A stretch of 64,000 nt of DNA from Aporhodopirellula sallentina SM41 (GTDB lineage: Bacteria > Planctomycetota > Planctomycetia > Pirellulales > Pirellulaceae). Below the pieces are notes generated by a model, which was given only the letters and a program-made list of their open reading frames with translations, had not been told where the DNA came from and searched no databases. This document shows, piece after piece, positions 10,369-35,516 of this stretch; position 1 is the first letter of the stretch; every line of letters begins with the position of its first letter. The DNA lies in assembly GCF_000346505.1 (NCBI RefSeq), contig NZ_ANOH01000274.1, forward strand, positions 1 through 64,000, written 5' to 3'. Both the position numbers and the translations under genes were made by a program.

Positions 10369-10558
10369 GGTTGACTTTCAAACGGGAGTGGGTCGAAATG
10401 GAGGCGATTGCCTGCTATCGGGTTAAGATGGCTCAATCCGCTTTCGCTGAAAACCGGACATTTGCTCGGCGGGGCCTACCTTCACCCATTTTCTCTATCG
10501 AATTACTGTTCCCATGGTATTGCACCGCTGCAAAACGGCGTTTCGATTTTCTTCGAAC

Positions 10559-15916: not shown

Positions 15917-16643
15917 AAAATTATCCCATCGGTGTCTGCGCAGTAGTCGGTGCGATTTGTAACAGAAACGCTGCCCTACCGCTTGGGAGATCGCTGCCCG
16001 GCACTCCACCAAACGGAAAACGATCCGAGTCGCAAAAAAACGACACGCCTCACGTCGAAGGGCAGCCCCGCGTCCGCCTAACCGAACGTTTCACGCGGCT
16101 TCGAAATCCCGCGAACGACCACACTTTCGCACCCCCCTCCAAAAAGGCAAATCACACCCACCACTCGGTGAAAAATATGATAGGATACGCTTACGATTGC
16201 GAAAATATCTACCACCAACGAGTGAGTGACCAGCCCTCACATGCAGCATATTTATGCACACCAATTCAACCAACACGAATACCCCACGCAGGGTGTATTA
16301 TTTTCCCCTTTCATCCTAAATTGACTCCCAGGTGAAGCTAGCGTAGGAAGCCTGCGAACTCGATTCGGGTATGAAACGCGTTGTAATCGAACTGTCACGG
16401 CCGGACGAGAAACGCCCCAGAGCGACAGTTCTGGACGTCTCCATCCGCGACGTGTCGTCCTATTCACCCGTCACATCCCCGGCCATGCCGCGTCAACCGC
16501 CAGTCCCACTGAGGCAATCCCATCAATTGAACGAATTTCCTATGAATGCCTGACCGTCCCCACTCGGAATTGGCATATCACAAGAAAAACGCTGTCCCCG
16601 ACCGCTACCGCCGTGTCGGGTTTTCCGCACCTGTAATAGTGTT
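15917..16643. promoter_or_regulatory. Divergent control region of the PKS locus
   Basis: A 727-bp spacer between the SDR gene and the PKS operon, with no convincing gene; a 60-codon frame at 16371-16553 is unsupported. The part from about 16160 to 16330 is clearly more AT-rich than the surroundings and holds several A/T blocks (AAAATATGATAGGATA, GCGAAAATATC, GTGTATTATTTTCCCC). I take this as the likely promoter area for the operon, with a long leader. No exact -35/-10 pair or operator can be assigned by eye. Confidence 0.45.
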
Positions 16644-19600
16644 ATGACAAAAGTGTCCCAGCCATCGACCGACACGCCATCGGTCGTCGATCTGCTTTGC
16701 GAGTGGGCAGACGTCCAGCCGGACAAGGTGCTGTATCGCTTCTTGAGAGCTGGCAACCACGACGGATCCAACGCGAAAGGATCCAACCGAGAACAATCCC
16801 ACGACAACAAAACACTGTTCGCTCCGATTTCAGACGCGAGTTGTCTGCCGGAGTCCGAAGGGTACACCTACCGCGGATTAGATCGACAGGCGCGTCGAAT
16901 CGCCGTTTGGCTCAGCCAACGGGTCCGGCCTGGTGAGTGCGTCGTGCTCGCATTCCCGCCTGGACCGGAATACCTGGCCGCCTATTTCGGATGTCTTTAC
17001 GCCGGTGTGATCGCGGTACCGGCCTATCCTCCACGACGCAACCAACGCGACGCACGACTGTGCGCGATCATCGCCGACGCGGAAATCAAGGTCGGTTTGA
17101 CATCCACATCGCTCGCGGCCTCTCTGCAAGCAAACGCAGAATCAGCAGACGCCGACGACCCATGGTCCGTCGTTACCTGGTGTTCGATCGATGCGATGGA
17201 TCCCAATGCGGCTGACGACTGGGTACGTCCGGATCTCGATCGAGACACCACCGCGTTCCTGCAGTACACCTCCGGTTCCACCGGTTCGCCGAAAGGAGTG
17301 ATCGTCACGCATGGCAACTTGCTACACAACCAACACCTGATTCAGTCGAGCTTTCTATCGACAGGCGATGACACGGTCGTCGGTTGGTTGCCGCTGCATC
17401 ATGACATGGGCCTGATCGGCAACTCGCTCAATCCGCTCTACCTCGGCGGCGAGTTGATTTTCATGTCGCCGATCGATTTCCTACAGAAACCGTCTCGATG
17501 GCTGCACGCCATTACGCAGTTTGGTGGTGCCGTCGCAGGTGGGCCAAACTTTGCCTATCGGTTGTGTGTTGACGAGATCACCGACGAAGAGTTGGTTGGT
17601 GTGGATTTGTCGACATGGCGAGTCGCATTCAACGGCGCCGAACCGATCGACTCTCGTGTGCTCCATCGATTCGCCGAGCGTTTCGCGGACTATGGATTCG
17701 AACACAAACTGTTTTGTCCGTGTTACGGCATGGCAGAGACAACGCTGTTGGTCAGTAGCAGCGTGCGCGGACAACCGGTCAGAGAACTTCCTCCTCGTGA
17801 CGCGACTGAAGACAGCGACCAATCACGATCCAACTGGATCGGTTGCGGCGTTCCCGACGAAAGTATGGATGTTCGCATCGTCGACCCCGAAACCAGAACC
17901 GAAATGCCGGCGGGCGAGATCGGAGAAATCTGGGTCGCGGGCCCATCGGTGGCAGCAGGTTATTGGAAGAACCCGGAGAAGACTCGCGAGACATTTCAGG
18001 CAACGATCGCCGGCCAGTCGAAGCAATACTTGCGAACGGGCGACCTCGGGTTAATTGACGCCGATACCTTTCCCGGCGAATTGTTTGTCACCGGGCGATG
18101 TAAAGATCTGATCATCGTTCACGGGGCCAACCATTATCCGCAAGATATCGAACGAACGGCCGAATCGGCTCATCCGGCAAACGCGATCGGAGGAGGCGCC
18201 ACCTTCTCGGTGACCGCCGATGACGGTGAAAACGTGGTGATCACTCAAGAGATCCGGCGTTCGCAAAGACGCAGCGCCGACTTGGATGAGGTAATTGACG
18301 CGATCCGCGCCGCCGTCACGCAAGAACATCAAATCGTTCCATCGTCCATCGTACTGGTTCGCCCCGGTGGGATTCCAAAGACAACCAGCGGCAAGGTGCA
18401 GCGGTCCGAAGCCCGACGGCGATTCGAAAACGATGAGTTCCGAATCCTGCACCGATGGGACCGTCCGACCGCGAGCAAAACGTCCGACTCGCCTCGATCG
18501 ACGCAGGCGGATTCGCCTCAACTGTCAACGATTACCGCGTGGCTAATTGAAAAGATCGCCGCTCGTGTGAAGCTCCCGATCGAAAGCATTGATGTCGACG
18601 AACCCGTTGCTCGATACGGGCTCGATAGTGTCGGTGCGGTTCGTCTCGCCGGTGAGCTTTCCGAATGGCTGGATCGAGACATTCCCGCGACGCTCGCATA
18701 TGAGTATCCGACCATCACGGGTTTGGCCAATCACCTCTCCGGTGTGGACTCATCGCCTGCTCTTCAAAAGGCACATGAAAAGACAACTCAATCCAGTCAT
18801 CGTCACAATGAACACCATGCCGGATCGAGTGGACCGGTCGCCATCGTCGGAATCGGATGTCGCTTTCCCTCGGCGTCCAACCCGCATGAATTTTGGAACG
18901 TGTTGCGAGATGGGATCGATGCGACCGGCGAGTGCCCGCACCGTTCCGACTGGCCCAGCGCGGGCAACCTGGACCCTTCCGTTCCCACGCGTGGCGGATA
19001 TTTGGCAGACGTCGCGGGCTTTGACGCCGGTTTCTTCGGCATCAGTCCGCGCGAGGCCGATGCAATCGACCCTCAACATCGACTACTGCTTGAACTGACC
19101 CAGGAAGCCTTTGAGGACGCGGGCATTCCGATTGCCAACTTATCGACGCGAGACCAAACCGAAGATCACAACCAACGCGTTGGAGTTTTCGTTGGCATCG
19201 GAAACAACGATTACTCCCGGTTCCACTCCAACGACAACGATCGAGTGACCGCGTATACCGCGACAGGCAACTCGATGGCCATGGCGGCCAACCGTGTTTC
19301 GTACACATTCGACTTTCGTGGACCGAGCCTGACGATCGACACGGCATGCTCATCGTCACTGGTCGCAACCCACCAAGCCTTTCGAGCCCTCGGCTCAGGC
19401 GACTGCGACTATGCAATCGCGGCCGGCGTCAATCTCATTCTCTCGACCGACGCAACCGAGTCGTTCACCAAAGCGGGCATGCTCTCGCCGTCAGGTATTT
19501 GCCGAACCTTTGACGAAGCCGCCGACGGGTTCGTCCGAGGAGAAGGCGGTGGAGCGGTATTGCTGCGACCCCTCAGCGATGCGTTGGCCGACGGCAACCG

Positions 19601-22600
19601 AATCTACGCCGTCATCCAAGGTTCCGCAGTCAATCAAGACGGACGCAGCAACGGTTTGACCGCGCCGAGCCGTGCCGCGCAGGCTGAACTGATCCGCGAA
19701 GCACTTCGCGACGCGGGTGTTCCCGGCGAGGCGATTGACTATGTCGAAGCACACGGCACGGGAACGTCTCTGGGCGATCCGATCGAGGTGCGAGCGATCA
19801 GAGAATCGTTAATCGAGACTCCCGAATACTCAGCAAAGCCTGATGCGTCTCTCAAGATCGGGTCCGTCAAAGCGAACATCGGCCATCTCGAAGCGGCCGC
19901 GGGCATCGCGGGGCTGATCAAAGTCGCGTTGTCCGTCCAAAATCAGATGCTGCCGCAACAAGTCAACTTCGAAACACCCACTCCACACATCGACTGGAGC
20001 GGCGGACTGCAGGTCGTCGCCGAATCGACCCCGTGGCCACGTCACGAGGAGCGACCACGCCGAGCCGGTGTCAGCTCGTTCGGCTTTGGCGGAACCAACG
20101 CACACGTCGTCTTGGAAGAACCGCCGGAGGCACCAACGACTGCACCGGAGGAAAATGTCTTTGCCCCAGGCGTGCTGGTTTGCTCGGCAAAATCACCGGA
20201 GACCCTGTCCCGAGTGGTGGACTCCGTTCATGCGATCAGTGACGCAACCGATCACGCCTCGCAGGCGTACACACTGGCGACCGGCAGAAGCCACTACCGA
20301 CACCGTGCCGCTTGGGTTGGAGATGCATCGAGTGCCCCGCCCGGTAATGCGTCCAAATGGATCCAGGGAGTAAGCCAACGCGATGCGTCGGTCGACTGGT
20401 ACTTTAGTGGCCAGGGTGGTTGCCACGCCGGTGCAGGTCACCAACTGTACCAAAGCAATCCGACCTTCCGGCAAGAATTCGATACTGTTGCCGAGGCCTT
20501 TTCTGCCCAAACAGGACACGATCTGAAACAACGTTTGTGGAGCACCAAAGATCAGTGGCTCGAGGTTTGGATACAACCGGCGTTGTACTGTTTGCAAGTC
20601 GCTACGGCCCGTTTTTGGATGGCACTGGGCGTCCAGCCGAACCGGCTCGTGGGGCACAGCCTCGGCGAATTCGCGGCTGCTTGCATGGCGGGTGTCTTCA
20701 CGTTTGAAGACGGCCTCACGCTCGTGACGCGGCGTGCCGAACTCACCGGGCGGATCGAACAACGCGGTGGGATGCTCGCGGTGTTTTCCGATGAAAAGAG
20801 TCTTCGTCAAACACTCGCCAATTTCAACGGACGATGCGAGATCGCAGCCGTCAACGGACCGAAACAAACCGTTGTCGCCTCGCTCCCTGAAACCCTCACA
20901 GAGCTTGCAGACTTCCTCAAAACGCACGGCATCGTTTCGCGTCCGATGTCGACAACGCACGGCTTTCATAGTTGGCTGATTGAACCGATTCTCGATGAAT
21001 TCGAACAAACGGCATCCATGACCGCGATGATGCCGCCGACACCGGCATTCGTGTCATCGCAAACGGGCAAACTAGCCGGCGAAGCGGCGGCAACGCCTGA
21101 GTATTGGCGATCCAACCTTCGCAACGCGGTTCGATTCGATCTCGTCTTGAACGAAATGTCGGGCGCGACTTCGTCGAACGACGTTCCGACGAAACAAAGC
21201 CGATCGCTTGGGATGGAAATCGGGGCAGGAAGTACATTGTCCGCACTGGCCCGTTCAGCCAAAACCGGATTGTCGGTGCTCGCCGGTTTCCCAGCCGACG
21301 CCAACGCACCGGTCAAAAAGCCAGGCTCCTACTGGGACACGCTCGCAAATTTATACGTCCATGGTGTCGATTTCGATTGGGCAGCCGCGTTGGGAGGAAC
21401 CGCGCCGTTGGTTTCGCTGCCCACCTACCCGTTCGATCGAGAACGACATTGGCTTTCCTCTGCGGGAGCGAACTCCGCAACATCGGCAACATTACCATCA
21501 TCTACACCGGAGACATCTGCCGGCGACCTTGCGTCACGACTTGACCTGGCGAGCGAAGACATTGTCTTTGAAACTCACTTCGGAGCAGACTCTTTCTTGA
21601 CCGACCATCGGGTCGATGAGTCGGTGCTCTTTCCCGCCGCCGGTTTTGTGCGGTGGGCACTCGCCGCGGGTGAAACGTTGACTCGCGAAAACGAAGACTC
21701 CAACGACCGCGGTTCCATTCAATTACGGGATTTGGAGATCCTGCGTCCACTCGTCCTTCACGATGGCCAACCCCAACGATGCCAACTCGTTCTGTCGCCG
21801 ACGAGCGAAGCCGACTCAACATGGCATGGGCGAATCCTCGGAAGAAAAGCAAAGAACTGGCGTTTGCACGCGACCTTCACGCTGTCGCTGAAAGACAATC
21901 CTGCCGAGTCCCCCAATCCGATCGCAAACTTCACGCCGCGTACCGATCTGATCCCGAGTGATGTTGATGAACACTATCAACGTCTCCAAGACGCGGACAT
22001 GCAATACGGTCCCGCGTTCCGATTGATCCGCAATTTGGGCTCGCTCGGAAACGACGCCGAAGCAATTGTCACGTCTCGCGAAACGATGTCTGGCGATGAT
22101 ACCTACCGCATCGGGAGTCTCGACGCCTGTTTACAAACGGTAGCCGCATGCGGAGTCCGGTGGGGACAGCGTGCATGGGTCCCCGTCGGTATCGATTCCA
22201 TCGACCTGATCGGCGATTTCTTTGCCGGAGGACCTGATACTCAATTTCGCGTGTCGGCCCGCCTGTTGAATCATCAAGAAGAAACCGCAACGGCCGATCT
22301 CGTCATCGCACCGATATCGACATCGACACAGACGGAATCTGTCCAAACCGAGTCGTCGACGGGCATCATCATCAGAGGCCTACAACTCAAAGCGACCGCG
22401 CCGATCGACTCGACGGAACTCACCCTGCAAAATCGCTGGGTTGAGTCGATACGCCAAAAAGAAGCCAATTCACTCAACACGGTCGAGATCCCCACGACGA
22501 TCAACGGGGTAGCCAACGACGGTCTACCGTCAACGATCCTTCGCGAGATCAGCGAATCACTGGAATCGGTCGCGGGAGAATGGACGATCAAAATCCTCTC

Positions 22601-25600
22601 GCAACTCGGCCTCCGCTGGGACATTGGGGACACCCACTCTCTGAATTCGATCTTGGACGCCGCCAGTATCCACCCTAAGCATTCCCGTCTACTGCAACGG
22701 ATGTTGAGGATTGCGGAGGAACAAGGTCTACTACAGAGTGGTCTCAACGGAGACACGGAAACCTGGACCGTTGCAACCGCTCCTTCGCTCCCAACCACGC
22801 TCGCAAAACACCCCAGTGCAACAAACGAATTCGCGTTGCTCGATCGGTGTGCCGCCGCGACGGCTGACCTCATGCGCAGTGGCGACGACCCTCTACCTTT
22901 ATTGTTCCCATCGGACGGTGAAGTTTCTGCGGCCGATGTTTATCGCGACTCCGTTGGCGGTATCCGGCTGAATCGACTCGCCGCGGGAGTTGTCGCGGAG
23001 ATCACGAGCGAACTGCCGCCCGGTCGTGGACTGCGAGTTTTAGAGATTGGTGCCGGCACCGGTGCCACGACTCGAGCGGTTCTGAACGAACTTCCCCATG
23101 ACCGGTGCGAGTACGTTTACACCGACGTTGCTCCCGGTTTTCTTGCAGCAGCACGACGCAGTTTCGCGGAACATCACTTCCTTGATTATCGCGTACTGGA
23201 CATCGAACAAGACCCGACGTCGCAGGGCTTTACGGACTCGCTCAACAAGTTTGATATCGTCATCGCAGCGAACGTGCTGCACGCGACCGCCGACCTTGCC
23301 ACAGCAATGCGACACATCCGGTCGTTGATTCACCCGCAAGGCCACCTCGTGGTTTTGGAAGGCACCGAACCTTCACGTTGGCTCGACCTGACCTTCGGAT
23401 TGACGCCAGGATGGTGGCGATTTACCGAAACCGATCTTCGTCCCGAATACCCATTGATCTCATCGCAGGGCTGGTCCCGACTGCTCGGGGCCGAGGGATT
23501 TGACTCGCCGACATTCTTCGACCCTGCCACCGGGCAGCCAGAATCGCAAACACCCGCCGAACTGGCCACGCCGAGCAAGGTCATTGTTGCTCAGCCCACA
23601 CCAACCGCGACTCCTTCGCATCATCGACGTTGGCTATTGATCGACAATGACTCAACTGATGTCGCGACCTGCTACGCAAACATACTTCGTGATCGGGGAG
23701 ACACCTCGGAAGTCGCCACGCTCAGCGAACTTGATCATCCACAGGAAGGAATCTCGAAGTATCTAGACGATCTCCAACCGACCGACATCGTCGTGCTCTC
23801 TTGCAACGAATCGCTTTCGTCCGATGACGACATCAGCAGCGATATCCAAAGCCGCTGTAATGCTCGCTGTAGTGACCAAAGTAGTGACCGCTGTGACACC
23901 CCCGCAGACTCCCTGGCAAAAGCAAGCGTTCGGATGCTGTCGGTCTTTCAAACATTACTGAGAGCCCAATCGTCTCGCATATCAACTGAACCGAATCTAC
24001 GCGTGCGATGGGTCACCTGCGGAGCCGTGGCAACGGATTCAATCGCTCCCGGAGCTTTTTGCGAGTCCACCTGCAACGCCAATTCAAAGACGCCGGTTGA
24101 TATCGTCGGCGGTTCGTTGTGGGGCATGTGGCGGACCCTGACCCTCGAACAACCGCAGTGGTCATGTTCCGGAATCGATCTCGACCGCGCGGCGTCGACT
24201 GAGACGAACGCAAATATTCTGTTCGACGAATTCAGCTCGACCGATCCGAGAAATGAAGAGGTCACGGTTCGCGATGGTCGGCGGATGGTTCGGCAGTGGG
24301 AACATCACAATCTTTCTGATGATGAGCAATGCCGAATCCTCTGCATCAACGAACGCGGCAGTTTACAAGGCCTCTCCGCCGAATCTCGAAACCGACGCCT
24401 TCCCAAAGCAGACGAGGTCGAGGTCGGGATTGTTTCTGCCGGCCTGAATTTCCGTGATGTTCTCAACGTGCTAGGCGCGTATCCCGGTAACCCACCGCTC
24501 GGTGCCGAGTGCGCCGGGAAAGTCGTACGAGTCGGCGCGGATGTTGACGATGTAACCGTAGGAGACCGCGTGGTTGTCGTCGCGGCGGAGTCGATCGCCG
24601 ACTACGTCACAGTACCCGCTTCATCGGTTTGTCATTTGCCGGAATCAATTTCATTCGACGACGCGTCGACTCTTCCGGTCGCCTTCTTAACCGCCTCAAC
24701 AGCAATCGAAGATATCGCCAATTTGAAAGCGGGCGAATCCGTTTTGATTCATTCAGCGGCAGGCGGTGTCGGCATCGCCTCTGTCCAAATCGCCCAACAC
24801 CTCGGGGCACAGGTGTTCGCAACAGCCAGCCTCGACAAACATGATTTTCTCAAACAAATGGGTGTCACTCACGTATTTGATTCGAGACAAACGGGTTATG
24901 CAGCGGCGATCTCGAAAGCGACTGATGGACGTGGAGTCGATGTGATTGTCAATTCGCTCGGCGAAGCATTCATCGACGAAAACCTGCGAACCGCCGATGA
25001 CACCTGCCGCTACGTCGACATCGCGTTGGCGAACTCCGGGATCAACGATCGCATCAAAGCACAGAAGCCTCGCATTGAATACACACCGTTGGACCTGTCT
25101 AAGCGTTTGGCAGATAGCCCCGACGGTATCCAAGGTCGGCTCGATCGCTTAATTCAAAAAGTTCGAAAGAACGTTTACCGCCCCTTGCCTCTGCGTGCTT
25201 TCGAGTTTGACGAAGTAGCCGATGCGATGGCATGGCTTCAAAGCGGTACAAATATTGGGAAGGCGGTGATCCACTGCGGTTCGAAACGGCAACCCGCATC
25301 TCTCCCCGAATCCACAACACGAAAATCAGTCGACGGACTGCAGATCATTACCGGTGGTCTTGGCGGATTGGGCCTCCTGACCGCAGAGCATTTGATCGAC
25401 AGCGGAGCGACCAAGATTGCCTTGCTCACCCGACGCGCCGCGACGAACGACGAGAACGCGGTGCTGAACCAATGGCGTTCACGCGGCGTGAGTATCCAGG
25501 TCGAGAATGTGCAACTGAGCCAGATCGCTAATGTTGACCAGACGTTATCACGTCTTCGCGATAACTTGGGGCCAATCACAGGTGTCTATCATCTCGCCGG

Positions 25601-26684
25601 CGTGCTCGACGATGCCACCATGGAGCAACAATCGCCTGCGAAAATGCATCGCGTTCTCGATGCGAAGGTCTCCGGTGCATGGAACCTTCATGAGGCGACT
25701 CAACACGATGCGATCGATGACTTCGTGCTCTTCTCGTCCTTCTCGGCTTGGCTGGGATCGCCCGGACAAGCTAACCATGCAGTCGCCAACGCGTTTTTGG
25801 ATTCTTTGGCAATGCTCCGCAGAGAACTCGGGCAACCGGCAATCTCAATCGGGTGGGGACCGTGGGGGCGAATCGGGGCAGCGGCGAAACGCGATCGTCT
25901 CGGCAAAGGCGACCTCGCTGGAATCGGCATGTTGATGCCTGACGAGGGAATTCACGTTCTCGAGCACCTATTGAGAGCGTCCGCACAGGAAAGTTCGCCG
26001 GGTTCAAAAACTCCCGCTTCGGTCGCGGTTGCTCGGCTGCATTTGGATCGGTTGCCCGATCACCTTCAGTCTCACCGTTTGTTTGAAGGCCTGCTTCGCG
26101 ATCGCAACAGTTCCGACAATGCGGCAACGAAACCTGACTGGGTGGAGCAATTGGGTGAACTTACCGCAGACGAACGCCTAAAAATGGTCACCCAACACAT
26201 TCGCGAGTCGATCGCCACCGCACTCGCTTTGGGCAGTGCCGATGCGGTTCCGCTCGATCAACCATTATTCGATCTGGGGATGGACTCGCTGACTTCGTTG
26301 GAACTGGTCAACGCTCTGCAAGCAACGCTCGGCGTACGCATTAGCACGATCGATCTATTCAACTTCCCCGACGTGCAGGCGCTCGCCGGACGGATGCTCG
26401 AACTGTTGTCTCTTACCGATGCAGAATCGTCATATACAGAAGAGCGGGACGTCAAACAGCCAACGGTAGAAAAGCACGCCCGCGAGAACGTGAATTCCGA
26501 TCGTGAACTAGAATCAGGGGTGAGTCTGTCGAATTTACAGGCAAACGCGCCTGTCGCATCGGAACGCGTATCCGACACCGAGGACACCTCGGGGAGCGAA
26601 ATGCCGGTTGCTGAGGTAACGGATCTACTTCGTGAAATTGGCGATTTGTCCGAACAATTCGAACAGTGGGGAGCTGACCAATGA
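16644..26684 (+). CDS. Hybrid FAAL-type I PKS megasynthase (FAAL-ACP-KS-AT-DH-cMT-ER-KR-ACP)
   Basis: 3346-aa megasynthase. Domains in order: fatty acyl-AMP ligase, 1-600 (YTSGSTGSPKG near 206; HHDMGLIGNSLNPLYLGG and GGPNFAYRLC are FAAL-like); ACP, Ser661 in GLDSVGA; KS, 732-1160, with Cys902 (DTACSSS), His1037 (EAHGTGT) and NIGHLEAAAG; AT, ~1245-1530, Ser1339 in GHSLGE and a GFHS motif that point to malonyl-CoA; DH, ~1620-1900, His1655 and Asp1827 (DACLQ), but Glu where HxxxGxxxxP has Gly; C-methyltransferase, ~2070-2300 (LEIGAGTGATT); structural KR half, then ER, ~2560-2880 (HSAAGGVGIASVQ); KR, ~2895-3120 (ITGGLGGLG), with His3045 in place of the catalytic Tyr; ACP, Ser3215 in GMDSL. It activates a fatty acid, loads it on the first ACP and adds a malonyl unit with C-methylation. 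The stop overlaps the next start by ATGA. Confidence 0.95.
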   Translation: MTKVSQPSTDTPSVVDLLCEWADVQPDKVLYRFLRAGNHDGSNAKGSNREQSHDNKTLFAPISDASCLPESEGYTYRGLDRQARRIAVWLSQRVRPGECVVLAFPPGPEYLAAYFGCLYAGVIAVPAYPPRRNQRDARLCAIIADAEIKVGLTSTSLAASLQANAESADADDPWSVVTWCSIDAMDPNAADDWVRPDLDRDTTAFLQYTSGSTGSPKGVIVTHGNLLHNQHLIQSSFLSTGDDTVVGWLPLHHDMGLIGNSLNPLYLGGELIFMSPIDFLQKPSRWLHAITQFGGAVAGGPNFAYRLCVDEITDEELVGVDLSTWRVAFNGAEPIDSRVLHRFAERFADYGFEHKLFCPCYGMAETTLLVSSSVRGQPVRELPPRDATEDSDQSRSNWIGCGVPDESMDVRIVDPETRTEMPAGEIGEIWVAGPSVAAGYWKNPEKTRETFQATIAGQSKQYLRTGDLGLIDADTFPGELFVTGRCKDLIIVHGANHYPQDIERTAESAHPANAIGGGATFSVTADDGENVVITQEIRRSQRRSADLDEVIDAIRAAVTQEHQIVPSSIVLVRPGGIPKTTSGKVQRSEARRRFENDEFRILHRWDRPTASKTSDSPRSTQADSPQLSTITAWLIEKIAARVKLPIESIDVDEPVARYGLDSVGAVRLAGELSEWLDRDIPATLAYEYPTITGLANHLSGVDSSPALQKAHEKTTQSSHRHNEHHAGSSGPVAIVGIGCRFPSASNPHEFWNVLRDGIDATGECPHRSDWPSAGNLDPSVPTRGGYLADVAGFDAGFFGISPREADAIDPQHRLLLELTQEAFEDAGIPIANLSTRDQTEDHNQRVGVFVGIGNNDYSRFHSNDNDRVTAYTATGNSMAMAANRVSYTFDFRGPSLTIDTACSSSLVATHQAFRALGSGDCDYAIAAGVNLILSTDATESFTKAGMLSPSGICRTFDEAADGFVRGEGGGAVLLRPLSDALADGNRIYAVIQGSAVNQDGRSNGLTAPSRAAQAELIREALRDAGVPGEAIDYVEAHGTGTSLGDPIEVRAIRESLIETPEYSAKPDASLKIGSVKANIGHLEAAAGIAGLIKVALSVQNQMLPQQVNFETPTPHIDWSGGLQVVAESTPWPRHEERPRRAGVSSFGFGGTNAHVVLEEPPEAPTTAPEENVFAPGVLVCSAKSPETLSRVVDSVHAISDATDHASQAYTLATGRSHYRHRAAWVGDASSAPPGNASKWIQGVSQRDASVDWYFSGQGGCHAGAGHQLYQSNPTFRQEFDTVAEAFSAQTGHDLKQRLWSTKDQWLEVWIQPALYCLQVATARFWMALGVQPNRLVGHSLGEFAAACMAGVFTFEDGLTLVTRRAELTGRIEQRGGMLAVFSDEKSLRQTLANFNGRCEIAAVNGPKQTVVASLPETLTELADFLKTHGIVSRPMSTTHGFHSWLIEPILDEFEQTASMTAMMPPTPAFVSSQTGKLAGEAAATPEYWRSNLRNAVRFDLVLNEMSGATSSNDVPTKQSRSLGMEIGAGSTLSALARSAKTGLSVLAGFPADANAPVKKPGSYWDTLANLYVHGVDFDWAAALGGTAPLVSLPTYPFDRERHWLSSAGANSATSATLPSSTPETSAGDLASRLDLASEDIVFETHFGADSFLTDHRVDESVLFPAAGFVRWALAAGETLTRENEDSNDRGSIQLRDLEILRPLVLHDGQPQRCQLVLSPTSEADSTWHGRILGRKAKNWRLHATFTLSLKDNPAESPNPIANFTPRTDLIPSDVDEHYQRLQDADMQYGPAFRLIRNLGSLGNDAEAIVTSRETMSGDDTYRIGSLDACLQTVAACGVRWGQRAWVPVGIDSIDLIGDFFAGGPDTQFRVSARLLNHQEETATADLVIAPISTSTQTESVQTESSTGIIIRGLQLKATAPIDSTELTLQNRWVESIRQKEANSLNTVEIPTTINGVANDGLPSTILREISESLESVAGEWTIKILSQLGLRWDIGDTHSLNSILDAASIHPKHSRLLQRMLRIAEEQGLLQSGLNGDTETWTVATAPSLPTTLAKHPSATNEFALLDRCAAATADLMRSGDDPLPLLFPSDGEVSAADVYRDSVGGIRLNRLAAGVVAEITSELPPGRGLRVLEIGAGTGATTRAVLNELPHDRCEYVYTDVAPGFLAAARRSFAEHHFLDYRVLDIEQDPTSQGFTDSLNKFDIVIAANVLHATADLATAMRHIRSLIHPQGHLVVLEGTEPSRWLDLTFGLTPGWWRFTETDLRPEYPLISSQGWSRLLGAEGFDSPTFFDPATGQPESQTPAELATPSKVIVAQPTPTATPSHHRRWLLIDNDSTDVATCYANILRDRGDTSEVATLSELDHPQEGISKYLDDLQPTDIVVLSCNESLSSDDDISSDIQSRCNARCSDQSSDRCDTPADSLAKASVRMLSVFQTLLRAQSSRISTEPNLRVRWVTCGAVATDSIAPGAFCESTCNANSKTPVDIVGGSLWGMWRTLTLEQPQWSCSGIDLDRAASTETNANILFDEFSSTDPRNEEVTVRDGRRMVRQWEHHNLSDDEQCRILCINERGSLQGLSAESRNRRLPKADEVEVGIVSAGLNFRDVLNVLGAYPGNPPLGAECAGKVVRVGADVDDVTVGDRVVVVAAESIADYVTVPASSVCHLPESISFDDASTLPVAFLTASTAIEDIANLKAGESVLIHSAAGGVGIASVQIAQHLGAQVFATASLDKHDFLKQMGVTHVFDSRQTGYAAAISKATDGRGVDVIVNSLGEAFIDENLRTADDTCRYVDIALANSGINDRIKAQKPRIEYTPLDLSKRLADSPDGIQGRLDRLIQKVRKNVYRPLPLRAFEFDEVADAMAWLQSGTNIGKAVIHCGSKRQPASLPESTTRKSVDGLQIITGGLGGLGLLTAEHLIDSGATKIALLTRRAATNDENAVLNQWRSRGVSIQVENVQLSQIANVDQTLSRLRDNLGPITGVYHLAGVLDDATMEQQSPAKMHRVLDAKVSGAWNLHEATQHDAIDDFVLFSSFSAWLGSPGQANHAVANAFLDSLAMLRRELGQPAISIGWGPWGRIGAAAKRDRLGKGDLAGIGMLMPDEGIHVLEHLLRASAQESSPGSKTPASVAVARLHLDRLPDHLQSHRLFEGLLRDRNSSDNAATKPDWVEQLGELTADERLKMVTQHIRESIATALALGSADAVPLDQPLFDLGMDSLTSLELVNALQATLGVRISTIDLFNFPDVQALAGRMLELLSLTDAESSYTEERDVKQPTVEKHARENVNSDRELESGVSLSNLQANAPVASERVSDTEDTSGSEMPVAEVTDLLREIGDLSEQFEQWGADQ

Positions 26685-29600
26685 TTCAACTACCGAACTC
26701 CGACGACGCATCCGATCAAGATCCTGCACGTCCTGGTCGCGGTACGCGAAATTCCGCTGTCAACGAAAACGTGCCCGCCGACGGCAGCCTGAACATGGCG
26801 AGCGTTCTCGAGGCTCTTCGAAAAACGAAAGCGGGTATGCAGCGATTGGGCGATCGTTTGAGCGAACCGCTCGCAATCGTCGGAATCGGTTGCCGGTTTC
26901 CCGGCGCCACGTCACCCGATGATTTCTGGGAACTGCTGCATCAAGGCCGTGCCGTCGATACTCACGCCGGTGACCGATGGACGAACGAACTGAAGTCGGA
27001 TCGTGAAAAGCAACCGGGCCGCATTACAGCTAATCGAGTCGGCTGGCTCGACCAGATCGATCAATTTGATGCTGCGTTTTTTGGAATCTCGGGCCGGGAA
27101 GCCGCCTCTCTCGATCCACAACAACGTTTGCTGCTAGAAGTCGCGTGGGAAACATTTGAAAACGCGGGCATCGCACCTCAATCCTGTCGCGGACGACGCG
27201 TCGGTGCGTTCGTCGGCATGTGCAGCAACGACTATCTGTATCGTTTGACTCGCCGCGACTCGGAATCCATTGATACGTACATGAGCACCGGAAACGCTCA
27301 TGGTGCAGCGGCGGGCCGATTGAGCTACGTGATGGATTGGCGCGGTCCGAGCGTGGCGGTCGACACCGCATGCTCGTCATCACTGACGGCGGTCCATTTG
27401 GCTGCACGCAGTTTGCGATACGGTGACTGCGACATGGCCATCGCGATGGGCGTCAACGTGATTTTGGCTCCCGAACTGAGCATCAGTTTGAGCCAAGCCG
27501 GCATGCTATCGCCGACCGGGCGTTGCCATGCGTTCTCGTCCGACGCCGATGGTTTCGTTCGCGGTGAAGGATGCGGAGCAGTTCTGCTGAAACGACTCAG
27601 CGACGCGATCAAAGATCAGGATCCGATTCTCTGCGTCGTTCGAGGCAGTGCGACCAACCAAGACGGCCGGAGCGTGGGTCTGACCGCGCCCAACGGCAAC
27701 GCGCAGCAAGCCGTCATTCGCGCCGCGATCGCTGACGCTCGCCTGACCGCAGAACAGATCGACTACCTGGAAACCCACGGCACCGGCACACCACTCGGTG
27801 ATCCGATCGAAGTGGACGCCCTTCGCCAGGTTTTCGGACCGAGCCGCGAACCATCGCGCCCCTTGCAAATCGGATCGGTTAAAACCAACGTCGGACACCT
27901 CGAAGGCGCCGCCGGAATCGCGGGAATGATCAAGGTCATTCTTTCACTCAAAAACAATTACCTGCCCCCGCATTTGCACTGCGACGAACTCAGCAAAGCC
28001 ATCGATTGGCAATGGCCGGTCGAAGTAATACGTCAAAAGCGTTCGTGGGAATCCGCAAAACCAAGAATCGCCGGCGTCAGTTCGTTCGGCTTCGGCGGCA
28101 GCAACGCACACGTGATCCTGTCTGACGCACCGTCGGTTCACCCACTATCGCCCGCCGCCTCGACCGAAGGAACGGTGATCGCACGTCCTGTCGCGTCGGG
28201 CGTCCAACTCGAGAATTCGCCGGCGCCGAATCTCACTCCCCAACCGTCGCTGTTCGTTTTGTCTGCGAAAAGCCCGAAGGCGTTGCGTCAGTATGCCGAA
28301 CGATTCGCCGCCTCGCTTTCGGCGATCTCCCTGCCGCTCGTCGACGTTTGTTTTTCCGCCGCAACGACCCGCGATGTTTTCGAACACCGAATCGGAATTG
28401 TCGCCGGAACGACTCAAGAACTCGTCGCCGAGCTACAACGTTATGCCGACGGCAATCCCTCATCCCAAACCATCACCGAGGTTTCAACATCGGAAAATCG
28501 ATTGCTCGGCGATGATCGAGTCTGCGAGCTCCGCAGCGTCGCGATGGCTTTCCTGCGTGGTGAAACGATCTCATGGAAAGAGCACTTCCCACCAACCGCC
28601 AAACGCGTCCCTCTGCCAACCTATCCGTTCCAACGCAGCCGACGGTGGATCGACGACACACCGGTCTGCCTACCCATGTCGGCTCTTTCGAGCAAATCTG
28701 TTGCTCCGGTTGATCGATTGGCAACGACGTTGCTTTCGACGACTCATGATGCGCCGGCTAGAAACGTTTCGACCGGTCACGCCTTGCTGCAACGAAAGCT
28801 GAACTTGGCGGGCAAAGAAACGATCTTCGAGACGAACTTAGAACAGTTCACCTACCTCCACGATCATGTCGTCCGGGGCATGAAACTGTTTCCCGCCGCC
28901 GGGCTGTTGGAACTGGCTTTGGAAGCAGGTCGAGCCGTTTCGCCGGACCTGACTTCCATCGATTCGTTCAAAATCCTTCGGCCGCTTCCACTGCGAGGTA
29001 GCGATCCGACATGCGTGCAGGTGATCGTTTCACCCGGCGAGCAAACTCGAGAGCTAACGATCGCGGCGTTGGACACACTTTCCGAAAATGGACAGTGGCA
29101 CACCATCGCCCAATGCCGGGTTGCGAACATGTCTCCCCAAAGTGACACACCATGTCCTAGCGAGATCCCGTCGCACGCTCCAACGGAAGACGAGACTCTT
29201 GCTTTGAACACACAGTGCGGCACCGAAACATCTGCCCACGATCACTACAAGGCGATGCATGATGCCGGTCTGAACTATGGCCCCGCGTTTCGAGGACTTC
29301 AGTCACGTCGAAACACTGTTGTCGATGGACAAACCGCATCGACTGGCCGGACCAAACTGCCATCCGGATTGGATTCGGATGGATATCAGTTGCATCCTGC
29401 ATTGCTCGACGCGTGTTTCCAAGTCGCCGCAGGGGTCATTCCTTCCTCCACGAACGCTTGGATCCCGGTCGGCGTCGACCACGTTGCGGCTCATCAATCC
29501 GCTAACGCGGACCAGACGCTGCAAGTCACGTCGACGCTCCGCCGTTCCTCCAACGCGTCAACCGAAGATGATTCGCTATCGATCGACTTAACGATCACCG

Positions 29601-30016
29601 ATGCCGATGGTTCTCCGGTCATGACCGTCACCGGACTGACACTGACGCCCATCACGATCGTCGCACCTGCGACAACCACGGCAGATGAATCGGCGTCGGA
29701 CACCGATTCTGCGAATCAGCAACAAAAGTCACCGGAAGAAATTCGTCAAGATTTGCACGAACGGATTGCGGAAATCATGGGGCTCGAAATTGACGAAGTC
29801 CCTCTCGCCCAATCGCTCGATGCACTCGGCTTGGACAGCCTCATGGCGTTCGAACTTCGTGACGAAATGCAACAAGAATTTGGCATCGAAGTACCTCTGG
29901 ATTTATTTTTCGAAGACAGCACCTTGGATACATTCTTAAATCAAGTGATCGAACAGATTGCAACTGCCGAGCCTCCTGTCGCAAGCGAAGACGGATGGGT
30001 GGAGGGCGCCTTATGA
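26681..30016 (+). CDS. AT-less PKS module (KS-DH-ACP)
   Basis: 1111 aa. After a short charged N-terminal helix (NMASVLEALRKTKAGMQRLG), likely docking to the previous protein, comes a complete KS (~65-500): IVGIGCRFPG, Cys231 in DTACSSS, His366 in ETHGTGT and NVGHLEGAAG. The KS-AT linker is present (FVLSAKSPKALRQYA), but no acyltransferase core with GHSxGE follows. The chain passes straight into the post-AT linker (RVPLPTYPFQRSRRW), as if the AT had been excised. The DH domain (~690-990) is intact: His729 in HVVRGMKLFP, and LHPALLDACFQ. An ACP ends the protein (Ser1053 in GLDSL). No KR or ER. The extender unit must come from another AT, perhaps that of the upstream megasynthase (inference). 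ATGA overlaps at both ends imply translational coupling. Confidence 0.93.
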   Translation: MIQLPNSDDASDQDPARPGRGTRNSAVNENVPADGSLNMASVLEALRKTKAGMQRLGDRLSEPLAIVGIGCRFPGATSPDDFWELLHQGRAVDTHAGDRWTNELKSDREKQPGRITANRVGWLDQIDQFDAAFFGISGREAASLDPQQRLLLEVAWETFENAGIAPQSCRGRRVGAFVGMCSNDYLYRLTRRDSESIDTYMSTGNAHGAAAGRLSYVMDWRGPSVAVDTACSSSLTAVHLAARSLRYGDCDMAIAMGVNVILAPELSISLSQAGMLSPTGRCHAFSSDADGFVRGEGCGAVLLKRLSDAIKDQDPILCVVRGSATNQDGRSVGLTAPNGNAQQAVIRAAIADARLTAEQIDYLETHGTGTPLGDPIEVDALRQVFGPSREPSRPLQIGSVKTNVGHLEGAAGIAGMIKVILSLKNNYLPPHLHCDELSKAIDWQWPVEVIRQKRSWESAKPRIAGVSSFGFGGSNAHVILSDAPSVHPLSPAASTEGTVIARPVASGVQLENSPAPNLTPQPSLFVLSAKSPKALRQYAERFAASLSAISLPLVDVCFSAATTRDVFEHRIGIVAGTTQELVAELQRYADGNPSSQTITEVSTSENRLLGDDRVCELRSVAMAFLRGETISWKEHFPPTAKRVPLPTYPFQRSRRWIDDTPVCLPMSALSSKSVAPVDRLATTLLSTTHDAPARNVSTGHALLQRKLNLAGKETIFETNLEQFTYLHDHVVRGMKLFPAAGLLELALEAGRAVSPDLTSIDSFKILRPLPLRGSDPTCVQVIVSPGEQTRELTIAALDTLSENGQWHTIAQCRVANMSPQSDTPCPSEIPSHAPTEDETLALNTQCGTETSAHDHYKAMHDAGLNYGPAFRGLQSRRNTVVDGQTASTGRTKLPSGLDSDGYQLHPALLDACFQVAAGVIPSSTNAWIPVGVDHVAAHQSANADQTLQVTSTLRRSSNASTEDDSLSIDLTITDADGSPVMTVTGLTLTPITIVAPATTTADESASDTDSANQQQKSPEEIRQDLHERIAEIMGLEIDEVPLAQSLDALGLDSLMAFELRDEMQQEFGIEVPLDLFFEDSTLDTFLNQVIEQIATAEPPVASEDGWVEGAL

Positions 30017-33000
30017 ATGCCCCTGACATGACTGCCGAGAAGCTCTACCAACAACTACTTGACCGCCGAGTCGAACTTTGGTGTCAAGGAAAGATGCTTC
30101 GTTTCCGTGCACCCGACAACGCACTCGATCAGGAAACGATGACGTTACTGCGTCGTTTTAAGAAAGACCTGATCAAGATCATTCAAAGCGAAACGGCTCC
30201 GCAGGCTGACGAGAGTCGGTTCGAACCGACGACCGTGGGCCAACAGGCGCTGTACTTCCTACATCTTTCGGCGCCATACAGTCCTGCCTACAACGTCGCC
30301 TCGGCCTGCCGGATCTGCTCCCCGGTCGATCCTGCATCGATCAAAACATCCATCGATTTGCTGGTCGAGCGACATGAGTCGTTGCGTACGACGATGGAAA
30401 TGAAGTCCGGAAAACTGCTTCGAAAGATCCATCAGAACTCAACCGCCGATTTTGCATCGATCGAGATGCTCGGCGCCTCCGAAGAAGAAATATCCTCACG
30501 CGTGAAGGCCGAGTACGAACGTCCGTTCGATCTCGAAGCCGGACCACTCTTGAGGGTACGATTGATTCGCCGCTCCGACGACGAACAGATCCTTCTGATT
30601 GTGCTGCATCACATTGTCTTTGATGCCTGGTCACTTTGGATCTTCCAAGACGAGTTATTCCAGTTGCTCTCACAGGTAACCGGCGGTGAGATCGCGAAAC
30701 TCCAGTCGCCTCCGGCAACGTTCTCTGATTTCGTCAACGAACAAAGAAGCTGGGTGGAAAGCACCGAGGGCGAGAAAGACTGGCTCTACTGGGAAGATGA
30801 ACTCGGTGGACCGCTACCGACTCTCGATCTCGCGAGCGATTTTCGACGTCCCGCGAGAGCGGAATTTCGTGGCGCGACGCTGAATTTCCAGATTCCAGAA
30901 GAACTCTCGTCGGGTCTACGCGAACTCGCCAAGACACTCCGCCTGACCCCCTTTGCGTTGACGCTGTCGATCTTCAAAACGCTGTTGCATCGCATCGCGA
31001 ACCAAAACGATGTCATCGTGGGCACAACCACGTCGGGACGTTCACGCAGCGAGTTCAATCATGTGATTGGCTATTTCGTCAACTCGCTCGCGATCCGTTC
31101 GGAATCGAGCGATGATCCGACATTCGCCGATTTCGCCACCGGAGTGAAATCAAAAGTCCTCGGTGCGATCAAACACCAAGGTTATCCGTTCGCGTCGATC
31201 GTGGATCGTATCGGTCGGAAAAGAAATGGCAGTGGCAACCCGATCTTCAACGTCATGTTCGGCCTGCAGAAGCCCCGCTTCTGCGAAGCGGCAACCTTGC
31301 TGGGAGACCAATCCGCGGAGGTCGAATTGGCCGGACTGCGCGTTCGCCCGTACAACATGCGGCAACAGGAAGGTCAGTGCGACCTGACGATGGAATTGTT
31401 CGAAACCGAGCAGCTTTTCGTTGGCACACTGAAATACGACACCGACCTGTACTCCGAACGAACGGCAAGACGCATCGCCGACCAGTTCGTGCATCTCTGC
31501 GGTGAAGTGGTCAGGGATCCTTCGAAACGATTGTCACAGTACGATCTGGTTTCAAAATCCGAACGAGACGAGATTTTGGCGTTGTCCTCATCCGCCGCGC
31601 TCGAAACGTGGGATGGCACACTCGTTCATCAATGGGTGGCACGACAGGCTCAATCGCGCGCAGACGCGGTCGCCTGGGTGTGTGACGCTGAACAACAGAC
31701 CTATGCCCAACTCGATCGTGCCAGCGACGTGATCGCGCATGAACTCTGTGAACGTGGCGTCACGAAGGGATCATTGGTTGCCTGCTGTTTTGCTCGGTGC
31801 TTTGAAACCGCCTCCGTTGTTTTGGGCATCATGAAAGCCGGTGCGGTTTACGTTCCGCTGGATTGCGAAAGTCCCATCACCCGCAACGAGAACATTCTTC
31901 GTTCGTGCGGGGCGGATACCTTGATCACCGACAACTCAGACTTGATCTCCGTCGTTGAATCGAGCGACGTTTGCTGTATCCCAATGCCCCACGTTGTTGA
32001 TCTGGTTTCCTCCGCCGACGAACAACGTCACGAGATTGACGTCGCGGCGTCGCCATCGGACACCGTCTACATCCTCCATACCTCCGGTTCCACCGGCAGT
32101 GCCAAAGGTGTCTGCGTTTCCCACGCCGCGTTGGCCCAGCACATCGTATCGATCAGTTCGGTCTACAAATTGACCGAAGACGACAGGGTCCTGCAGTTCA
32201 GCAACCTGACGTTCGATCCTTCGCTCGAACAAATGTTTTCGGCATGGCATGCCGGTGCGATGGTTGTTGCGAGAGGGAACGCCCTTTGGTCGCCCGAAAC
32301 TCTCTGGGAAAACGTCAGTCAACATGGTTTGACCGTAATCAACCTACCGCCCGCCTACTTCCAGCATTGCGGCGGGTTGATCGACCAGGATCATGACCTC
32401 AGTTCGCTACGATTGATGATCCTCGGTGGTGACGTTTTCCCGAGCGAATCAGTTTCCGCGTGGCGGTCTCGCGGCGTGCGTATTCTCAACGCTTATGGCC
32501 CCACCGAAGCCGTCGTCACCGCAACCACCTACGAAGTTTCGCCGGGGCAACACGCTCGGTCCGCTACGCCAATCGGCCGCCCACGGCCAGGCAGCAGAGC
32601 GTATGTTCTCGACGATGAAGGTCGACTGTGTCCGCTCGGCGCGGTCGGACGCCTTTTCCTCGCCGGCCCCATGCTCGCCGACGGTTACTGGCGAGACAGC
32701 CAACTCACCGAGAACGCGTTCTGCCGCGATCCATTCGTCGATGCGGAATCACCATCCTTAATGTACGACACCGGTGACCGGGCTCGCTGGAACCCTGACG
32801 GTCAACTCGAATTCCTCGGACGGATCGATCAACAGATCAAGGTCGATGGCATTCGTGCCGATACCTCGGAAGTTGAATCAGCGATCAACGCTATGCCGGA
32901 AGTCATGCGATGCTGCGTACGTCTGAATACCGACGAAGGAACGTCACAATCCGAGTTAGTCGCCTGGATTCAACCGACCGACAATACTCTGCGTGAAGAT

Positions 33001-33453
33001 AACGCGTCTCAAATAGGTGAGTATCAAAACAAGACCCTCGCTCATCTGCGGACGGTTCTTCCGCGATACATGGTTCCTCGACGTATCGTTGTGATGGAAT
33101 CGCTGCCTCTGACCGCATCGGGGAAGATTGCTCATCGGATGCTGCCACGTCCTGCCAAGTCCGAACGTCGGACGACGTGCGAATACGTTGAACCACAAAA
33201 CGAATGGCAAACAACCTTGGCGTCGATTTGGGAAGAAGAGCTCGGTGTGCCCAAGGTAGGGATCAACGACAACTTTTTTGATCTCGGCGGTGCATCGCTG
33301 ACGAGTCTGCGGATCATCACTCGCGCCAACGATGCCGGATTGACGCGGAACAATGGGCCGATGAAACCGGAAGTGTTATTCGAATACCAAACGATTTCTG
33401 AGCTGTACGAACATCTCGGTGCTCCCGAATTGACTCCCTGTGGCCAATCATGA
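30013..33453 (+). CDS. NRPS module (docking-C-A-PCP) without release domain
   Basis: 1146 aa. The first ~55 residues (AEKLYQQLLDRRVELW, GKMLRFRAPDNAL) look like a TubC-type N-terminal docking domain. The condensation domain (~65-500) has HHIVFDAW with His200 and Asp204; the usual Gly after the Asp is Ala. The adenylation domain (~540-1030) shows LHTSGSTGSAKG, NAYGPTEAVVTAT, YDTGDRARWNPDGQ and the Lys motif TASGKI. The specificity pocket read by eye is D-P-E-A-M-L-A-V-T-K, which I cannot match to a known amino acid. The carrier domain has Ser1095 in DLGGASLTSL. There is no thioesterase or reductase domain. It should add one amino acid to the polyketide chain; release then falls to the next protein (inference). 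Start taken at the ATG overlapping the PKS stop. Confidence 0.93.
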   Translation: MNAPDMTAEKLYQQLLDRRVELWCQGKMLRFRAPDNALDQETMTLLRRFKKDLIKIIQSETAPQADESRFEPTTVGQQALYFLHLSAPYSPAYNVASACRICSPVDPASIKTSIDLLVERHESLRTTMEMKSGKLLRKIHQNSTADFASIEMLGASEEEISSRVKAEYERPFDLEAGPLLRVRLIRRSDDEQILLIVLHHIVFDAWSLWIFQDELFQLLSQVTGGEIAKLQSPPATFSDFVNEQRSWVESTEGEKDWLYWEDELGGPLPTLDLASDFRRPARAEFRGATLNFQIPEELSSGLRELAKTLRLTPFALTLSIFKTLLHRIANQNDVIVGTTTSGRSRSEFNHVIGYFVNSLAIRSESSDDPTFADFATGVKSKVLGAIKHQGYPFASIVDRIGRKRNGSGNPIFNVMFGLQKPRFCEAATLLGDQSAEVELAGLRVRPYNMRQQEGQCDLTMELFETEQLFVGTLKYDTDLYSERTARRIADQFVHLCGEVVRDPSKRLSQYDLVSKSERDEILALSSSAALETWDGTLVHQWVARQAQSRADAVAWVCDAEQQTYAQLDRASDVIAHELCERGVTKGSLVACCFARCFETASVVLGIMKAGAVYVPLDCESPITRNENILRSCGADTLITDNSDLISVVESSDVCCIPMPHVVDLVSSADEQRHEIDVAASPSDTVYILHTSGSTGSAKGVCVSHAALAQHIVSISSVYKLTEDDRVLQFSNLTFDPSLEQMFSAWHAGAMVVARGNALWSPETLWENVSQHGLTVINLPPAYFQHCGGLIDQDHDLSSLRLMILGGDVFPSESVSAWRSRGVRILNAYGPTEAVVTATTYEVSPGQHARSATPIGRPRPGSRAYVLDDEGRLCPLGAVGRLFLAGPMLADGYWRDSQLTENAFCRDPFVDAESPSLMYDTGDRARWNPDGQLEFLGRIDQQIKVDGIRADTSEVESAINAMPEVMRCCVRLNTDEGTSQSELVAWIQPTDNTLREDNASQIGEYQNKTLAHLRTVLPRYMVPRRIVVMESLPLTASGKIAHRMLPRPAKSERRTTCEYVEPQNEWQTTLASIWEEELGVPKVGINDNFFDLGGASLTSLRIITRANDAGLTRNNGPMKPEVLFEYQTISELYEHLGAPELTPCGQS

Positions 33454-35516
33454 ACATCAACCATTCCATTCTCGAAAGCGTCGGCACGTACCTGCCACCA
33501 CAGGTCGTCACCACGCGTGAAATTCTTGATGGTTGCGTACGCCCTGTTCGCGTGCCTCTGGAACGTCTGACCGGAATTCGATCGCGTCACTTCGCAGCCG
33601 ACGATGAGTACGCGATTGACCTGGCGTCCAACGCGATCCAGGATTGCTTGAAACACTCGACGATCCATGCCGATCAGTTCGACCTATTGATCAGCGCCAA
33701 CATATCGCGTTGGGACGGTCCATCGCGTGTCGGTTACGAACCATCCACCGCGATCGCGCTAAAACGTTTGATGGGTTTTGACAATGCGATCGCGTTCGAC
33801 ATTTCCAACGCGTGTGCGAGCATGTGGACGGCGGTCTATGTTGCCGATGCGTTCATTCAATCCGGAGCCGTTCGCAGTGCGATGGTGGTCAGCGGTGAAT
33901 ACATCTCGCACCTGACACGTACCGCGCAGCTCGAGATGGACGGTTATCTCGATCCTCAACTCGCCTCGCTCACACTCGGTGATGCGGGCGTTGCGGTTGC
34001 CATGAGCGCGTCACCGCGGCGAGGCGAAGGCTTTACCGAGTTCGACATGTACACGCTCGGCCACTACAGCCGGTTGTGCATCGCAAAACCGAGCGATCAA
34101 CCACACGGCGGTGCGGTCATGCACACCGATGCGGTTCAGGTAACCGCGGCAATCGTTCCGCACGCCGCCGCTCACGCCGTTCATGTCCTCAAAGAAAGCG
34201 GACATCACGTCAATGATATCCAACACATCATCCCGCACCAAACGTCGCGACTGACGATCCGTGGTGCGATTGAGGAAATCGCGAAACAGTTTCAAACTGA
34301 TTGCACCGATCAAATGATCGACAACTTGGAACTGCGAGGGAACACCGCCAGCACGACACACTTCCTAGCGTTCCGTGACAACATCGACAACGGAAGAATT
34401 CGAACCGGCGACAGAGTCCTCTTTGCGATCTCGGGTTCTGGGCAAACCAGTGGCACGGCGGTCTACCATTGCAACGATCTGCCTGACCGAATCCGACGGG
34501 CTAACGATAACAACAACGGCAGTTCCACCAACGGGCACGCCAACCACCTCTTGATCGACTCGCCAACGCAAGACTCCATGAGCGTTGCGATGTCGACGCC
34601 GTTCCGGTTCGAATCGGTTGCAATGGCGACACCTGTCGATGGCGAACGTGCCGACACGTTGACGTTGCTACATCAGGCTGCTGAAACGAGCATCAAAGAA
34701 GCGAACATCGATCGCTCCACCATCGAGCTGTTGATCTCAACCGGCATCTATCGGACGGAATACCTCACCGAACCCGCCCTCGCGGCGTTGCTGGCCGGCG
34801 ACCTCAAACTCAACGCCGATCAGGCGGCAACGGACCCTGTAAAGTCGTTCGCGTTCGATCTGCTCAACGGTTCCATCGGCTTCTTAAACGCGTGTCACCT
34901 GATCTGTGAGATGGGACGTGCCGGGCGTATCGAACGAGCGATGGTGGTTGCCTCCGAGATCGAAAACAATGCTGACGTTCCCGACAAACCAACCATCGGC
35001 ATCACCGAGATGGCATCCGCCGCCATCCTGAGTGAATCTGAAGATGGTGAAACTGGTTTTCACGCGTTTCGGTTCGATCACTACCCTGAATTCCAAGACG
35101 AATACAAGGTCTTCGCCAACATCGAGAACAAGATTGGCAAGCCGTTCTTGGAACACACCATCGCTGAAGGATGGAAGAAGAGTCTCCTGCCGTGCATCCG
35201 ACAAAGCGTGGAACGGTTCCTCGACGAGAATTCTCTGACGAATGAGGACATCGATTGGTGGTTGCCTCCGCAAACCAGCGATGATTTCTTGCAAGGTTTT
35301 GCGAACGAATTGGAACTCGCCTTCGATCGCATGATCGTTGCGACCCAACGAGGTCCCGATGCATTCACGTCCTCGACCCCGTTGGCGATGCTTGCCGCCG
35401 GCGTGTCCGATCAAAACGGCAATCCTGACGACACTCGCCCCTCGGCAGGCGACCAAGGGTTGATCATCAACATTGGTTCAGGCTTACAGGTTGGTTGTGC
35501 CTTGTATCGTTTTTGA
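33450..35516 (+). CDS. Fused KASIII and pseudo-KASIII protein
   Basis: 688 aa built of two beta-ketoacyl-ACP synthase III-like (thiolase fold) halves. The N-terminal half (~1-345) keeps the Cys-His-Asn triad: Cys122 in DISNACASMW, His263 in IIPHQTSRL and Asn298 in GNTASTT, with GSGQTSGTAVYH near its end. An Asn/Ser-rich linker follows (NDNNNGSSTNGH). The C-terminal half (~375-688) has the same fold pattern (FDLLNGSIGFLNA, WWLPPQTSDDF, NIGSGLQVGCALYRF), but Ser475 replaces the Cys and Pro607 replaces the His, so it is probably inactive. The fusion mimics the natural KASIII dimer as one chain. Last gene of the ATGA-coupled operon and the best candidate for chain release, either by Claisen condensation or acyl transfer (inference). 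Confidence 0.9.
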   Translation: MNINHSILESVGTYLPPQVVTTREILDGCVRPVRVPLERLTGIRSRHFAADDEYAIDLASNAIQDCLKHSTIHADQFDLLISANISRWDGPSRVGYEPSTAIALKRLMGFDNAIAFDISNACASMWTAVYVADAFIQSGAVRSAMVVSGEYISHLTRTAQLEMDGYLDPQLASLTLGDAGVAVAMSASPRRGEGFTEFDMYTLGHYSRLCIAKPSDQPHGGAVMHTDAVQVTAAIVPHAAAHAVHVLKESGHHVNDIQHIIPHQTSRLTIRGAIEEIAKQFQTDCTDQMIDNLELRGNTASTTHFLAFRDNIDNGRIRTGDRVLFAISGSGQTSGTAVYHCNDLPDRIRRANDNNNGSSTNGHANHLLIDSPTQDSMSVAMSTPFRFESVAMATPVDGERADTLTLLHQAAETSIKEANIDRSTIELLISTGIYRTEYLTEPALAALLAGDLKLNADQAATDPVKSFAFDLLNGSIGFLNACHLICEMGRAGRIERAMVVASEIENNADVPDKPTIGITEMASAAILSESEDGETGFHAFRFDHYPEFQDEYKVFANIENKIGKPFLEHTIAEGWKKSLLPCIRQSVERFLDENSLTNEDIDWWLPPQTSDDFLQGFANELELAFDRMIVATQRGPDAFTSSTPLAMLAAGVSDQNGNPDDTRPSAGDQGLIINIGSGLQVGCALYRF

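Follow-up and report, generated by a model that had tools for sequence, protein, structure and literature searches.

A planctomycete FAAL-PKS-NRPS gene cluster with a putative LstA-LstB-type terminus

Biosynthetic assembly lines usually end in a thioesterase, a reductase or a cyclase. The lipstatin pair LstA/LstB and the enzyme OleA are the closest characterized relatives of the KASIII-type domains reported here. The activity of LstA/LstB was lost upon the substitutions C128A and H271A in LstA as well as E60A in LstB, and for LstA N305A a soluble complex was not obtained (PMC12141560). In OleA, Glu117 is a general base that is contributed by the partner subunit and acts across the dimer (PMC7064751). 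We analyzed a window of 64,000 nucleotides, the whole stretch of DNA under study, which is part of an 83-kb contig in a planctomycete genome of 8.2 Mb and encodes a four-gene assembly line with two KASIII domains at its end. The literature searched, with most subscription papers outside its reach, contained no planctomycete account of such a cluster and none of LstAB-type release on an NRPS. A fused LstAB may have been noted earlier in the 2019 LstAB paper (JACS 141:3993), which a review cites on heterodimers versus natural fusions.

Organization of the locus and its relatives

The line is encoded by four genes on the forward strand:

16644..26684, + strand: PKS1, 3346 aa, FAAL-ACP-KS-AT-DH-cMT-ER-KR-ACP (Pfam and motifs)
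26681..30016, + strand: PKS2, 1111 aa, KS-(no AT)-DH-(no KR)-ACP (Pfam and motifs)
30013..33453, + strand: NRPS, TubC-type dock-C-A-PCP (Pfam and motifs; listed as ORF 29995-33453, 1152 aa)
33450..35516, + strand: gene 4, 688 aa, KASIII-KASIII (two ACP_syn_III_C matches in Pfam)

Nearly all domains scored far above the Pfam gathering cut-offs, while TubC_N on gene 3 fell slightly below its own (23.5 versus 26 bits). The preliminary description had given this domain order, which Pfam bore out, along with three ATGA overlaps, which are present at all three junctions (26681-26684, 30013-30016 and 33450-33453). From the second of these it follows that gene 3 begins at 30013 (MNAPDM...) and not at 29995. 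The same junctions recur in Rhodopirellula rubra (G003) and Rhodopirellula (Aporhodopirellula) aestuarii (G009), the closest sequenced relatives found to carry the cluster, whose gene 4 products are 86% and 83-84% alike to that of the window, respectively; more distant relatives keep them only in part. Crude extracts of R. aestuarii ICT_H3.1, the G009 strain, inhibit Gram-positive bacteria (PMC10805854), for which involvement of the cluster is not claimed.

The LstB half was detected in 14 of 397 Pirellulales genomes, and one more genome in a 392-genome sample of the phylum had it at comparable strength. Several layouts were observed among these. The four-gene layout is found in the window, G003, G009, G011, G018, G059, G613 and G703, while G038, G498 and G460 combine a PKS with a fused C-A-PCP-LstA-LstB protein. 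Copies of the latter type in G487 and G502 are cut by contig ends, with that of G502 being partial. G676 encodes a single protein of 3,950 aa (FAAL-ACP-KS-AT-cMT-ACP-C-A-PCP-LstA-LstB), and G249 has an unfused pair and an SDR with no PKS within the stretch covered. Since the order of the parts is kept across diverged genomes, this order is not due to chance. The didomain directly follows the PCP in the fused relatives, which, as far as can be read from domain order, makes it very probably the terminal element of the line. Neither the four genes nor the flanking genes scanned encode a thioesterase.

Three domains of PKS1 have the following features:

16851..18449, + strand: FAAL domain, loads a fatty acid as acyl-AMP (PF00501 and PF23024)
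20397..21323, + strand: AT, Pfam match at residues 1252-1505, with GHSLGE and the malonyl-like specificity motif HGFHS
25335..25973, + strand: KR, Pfam match at residues 2898-3075, with His at the catalytic Tyr position (GQANH)

Several NCBIfam FAAL models match the first of these strongly, though below their curated cut-offs. The KS of PKS1 covers residues 731-1110 in Pfam, and its AT is the only one in the line of the window. Module 2 has a RhiE-like KS linker and lacks AT and KR according to Pfam, which is the composition of a trans-AT or AT-sharing module. Its KS Cys/His/His and DH His/Asp motifs are intact. A type B dehydrating bimodule was ruled out, as KS2 keeps the Cys and both His motifs. 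The AT is located in module 1 in the window, G003, G009 and G011 and in module 2, not module 1, in G059, while both modules lack it in G018, G613 and G703. With one AT or none per line, at least one module probably receives its malonyl in trans, and a shared or trans AT would be the simplest reading. The reduction state is harder to predict: module 2 has a DH and no KR in all four-gene loci, and His replaces Tyr in the module-1 KR of all four-gene lineages, a position that is Tyr in the G038 type and in all five solved KRs among the matches listed. The G676 line lacks DH, ER and KR altogether.

The specificity code of the A domain, with positions taken by motif rather than through a GrsA alignment, is DPENIGAVTK in the window and reads DPENIGA(V/I)TK throughout the four-gene loci, even in the diverged G018 and G059. 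Glu at position 239 is presumably a weak hint of a basic residue. The codes DILQLGMIWK (G038 type), which we take to be glycine-like, and DAFVVAGVWK (G676) are different, and the line thus seems to be a platform with a varying amino acid. Overall, these results support the earlier proposal of one fatty-acid-primed hybrid line that incorporates one amino acid.

The cluster is flanked by three further genes, which the preliminary description had missed:

14840..16012, - strand: extended SDR (3beta-HSD/epimerase type, Pfam), divergent from the PKS
13608..14735, - strand: MacB/LolC-like permease, candidate exporter (Pfam/NCBIfam)
35643..36347, + strand: LolD/MacB-type ABC ATPase, candidate exporter ATPase (Pfam/NCBIfam)

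The SDR, whose true start probably lies downstream of the listed TTG, adjoins all eight four-gene loci and that of G676; none was found beside the G038, G498 and G460 clusters. Permease and ATPase genes flank the cluster in the window and form an unbroken run with the SDR in G018, G613 and G703, where the ATPase is on the SDR side; in G003, G009 and G011 the ATPase is adjacent to the cluster. Additional neighbors include a 982-aa ORF with zero Pfam matches (10514-13462 of the window) that is conserved beside the cluster in G003 and G009, as well as a HetI-like phosphopantetheinyl transferase gene directly downstream of the G038 cluster (L045:2838-3659), a position occupied by a similarly sized gene in G498 and G460. 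In G676, an MbtH domain fused to a MupA/Atu3671-family luciferase-like (LLM) monooxygenase is encoded 16 bases past the synthase (L111:2070-3320).

The LstA-LstB-type fusion encoded by gene 4

The two halves of gene 4 differ in their catalytic residues:

33450..34484, + strand: LstA-type KASIII half, with the triad Cys122, His263 and Asn298 and with Glu97 in an EP motif
34575..35513, + strand: LstB-type KASIII half, with the triad lost and Glu441-Pro442 kept in a TEPALA motif

By tblastn, KASIII pairs of Streptomyces and Rhodococcus were recovered from plasmid records. Three of the Streptomyces pairs lie upstream of genes for an acyl-CoA-ligase-type protein, then an SDR, an NRPS and finally a formyltransferase, an order that we take to be that of the lipstatin operon lstABCDEF. 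Both halves of gene 4 were aligned with the Streptomyces and Rhodococcus pairs as well as with the FabH and OleA of the same genome. Glu441-Pro aligns with OleA Glu117 and the LstB-type Glu, while its correspondence to LstB Glu60 is a match by position only, the S. toxytricini LstB sequence being absent from the alignment. Every copy has this OleA/LstB-type Glu in each of its two halves, and FabH has no Glu at that column. All 16 planctomycete fusions compared (window, G003, G009, G011, G018, G059, G038, G613, G703, G676, G498, G460, two in G487, G502 and G607) have Cys/His/Asn in the first half and Glu-Pro in a second half that lacks the Cys and the His. The second half of G059 is exceptional in having Asn at the Asn column, with Cys and His still lost. 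The split Streptomyces and Rhodococcus pairs follow the same pattern of an LstA triad and an LstB Glu-Pro.

The second half had been labeled a pseudoKASIII. This label does not hold, as the half is of the LstB type and keeps the catalytic Glu, so that the pair resembles a covalent LstAB enzyme; a dead second KASIII was likewise rejected on account of the invariant Glu. In the tree, the halves fall into LstA-type and LstB-type clades (support 100/99), with deeper long-branch placement being unsure. This split indicates that the pair predates the fusion. Judged by sequence, gene 4 therefore appears, with high probability, to encode a covalently fused LstA-LstB-type enzyme. An AlphaFold model of gene 4 built from a shallow alignment of eight sequences was of low confidence (pLDDT 55).

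Proposed chain release and alternative readings

The sequences show which domains are present, that the halves are of the LstA and LstB types, which catalytic residues are kept and that relatives fuse the didomain to the PCP. From this basis we infer a second substrate, an order of events, roles for the SDR and the exporter, and a product. The FAAL would activate a fatty acid and load it onto ACP1, followed by extension with malonate and C-methylation in module 1, where reduction would be expected from DH-ER-KR. The AT-less module 2 probably extends the chain again with malonyl supplied in trans, and the TubC-docked NRPS would add one amino acid, so that the PCP carries an N-acyl-aminoacyl thioester. 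Cys122 of gene 4 would accept this chain from the PCP, while Glu441 of the second half may serve as the base that takes a proton from the alpha carbon of another acyl thioester. A non-decarboxylative Claisen condensation would then set the chain free, either as a beta-keto acid or, with loss of CO2, as a ketone. Reduction of this ketone may fall to the divergent SDR, and export of the product to the MacB/LolD-type ABC pair.

Release of a FAAL-PKS-NRPS chain through LstAB-type Claisen condensation with another acyl thioester is, taken as a whole, the explanation we favor, though some way short of confidence, and the intermolecular reaction with a second acyl chain appears likely to a similar, modest degree. 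Several points stand against this explanation: the SDR is no orthologue of OleD/LstD, the cluster lacks OleC/LstC, the KR with His for Tyr in module 1 and the DH without a KR in module 2 make the reduction state ambiguous, and the model of gene 4 was of low confidence. Its main rival is a Dieckmann (intramolecular Claisen) reaction, in which a beta-ketoacyl chain from module 2 would be turned by the NRPS into a beta-ketoamide that the didomain cyclizes to a 3-acyl tetramic acid. Such closure seems unlikely overall; it is a real rival wherever the last module leaves a beta-keto group. Tetronates are closed by KASIII-type enzymes, a base such as Glu441 would fit, and since module 2 has no KR, the lineages of the window, G018 and G059 should have a beta-keto group beside the amide, with G676 likewise devoid of a KR. 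On the other hand, the Tyr-containing KR of G038, G498 and G460 would remove the acidic alpha carbon even though their didomain is the same, the closest characterized relatives, LstAB and OleA, join two chains, and the conserved SDR would be left without an obvious role.

The enzyme types also match those of lst operons (LstAB, SDR and NRPS), and the didomain could act early by joining two acyl chains, one of them PKS-made, before the NRPS attaches an amino acid to a hydroxyl as an ester, as is thought for LstE. This order is improbable in view of the gene order, the TubC dock and above all the C-A-PCP-LstA-LstB fusions, which place the NRPS ahead of the didomain, and the cluster has neither LstC nor LstF. 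KASIII-fold acyltransferases such as CerJ exist, so the didomain might instead off-load an ester or acid as an acyltransferase or hydrolase with no C-C bond being formed. We regard this as the least probable reading and quite remote, given that the Glu required for OleA condensation and LstAB activity is present in both halves throughout.

Release by a ketosynthase-like protein had been suggested before, and the relatives that fuse the KASIII pair to the PCP strengthen the case for it. Returning to the intermolecular Claisen release, the clusters may represent a conserved planctomycete family whose built-in LstA-LstB terminus gives amino-ketone or amino-beta-keto-acid lipids by non-decarboxylative condensation, a proposal that we consider evenly balanced. 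If true, the fused end would link two lipid chains on an NRPS through a C-C bond, from which a new class of aminolipids would be expected, and the didomain would possibly be an unusual means of completing an assembly-line product. As the clusters range naturally from four genes to a single protein of 3,950 aa, the release step could be tested with one expressed construct.

Comparison with known systems

The planctomycete locus resembles LstA/LstB of Streptomyces toxytricini in combining one catalytic KASIII half with a triad-less half that has a conserved Glu-Pro, in the presence of an SDR and an NRPS in the same cluster and, by analogy, in the non-decarboxylative condensation expected here. 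In contrast to the lipstatin system, the pair is covalently fused and terminal in a FAAL-PKS-NRPS line, LstC and LstF are missing and the SDR comes from another clade, for which reason its assignment as OleD/LstD was rejected. The contig of the window gave zero matches above the cut-off to NF006754, the OleC family; the single strong match of the genome is on contig C341. With an OleD-like match on C428 and a canonical OleA, separate from gene 4, on C273, the genome probably has a pathway to head-to-head hydrocarbons or beta-lactones that operates alongside the cluster. OleA shares the Cys-His-Asn triad and the Glu117-Pro equivalent with gene 4, but works as a homodimer on free acyl-CoAs. The sequence of gene 4 also matched the structure 4v2p (titled KETOSYNTHASE), which we believe to be MxnB, though weakly (1.3e-7). 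The interconnecting ketosynthases MxnB and CorB of myxopyronin and corallopyronin biosynthesis are KASIII-type enzymes that act where an assembly line ends, as the gene 4 product probably does, but they are single-domain proteins and form a pyrone. Lastly, FAAL-primed PKS-NRPS lipopeptide lines have FAAL-ACP loading, PKS extension and one NRPS module in common with the locus, in which the predicted LstA-LstB terminus replaces their thioesterase or reductase.
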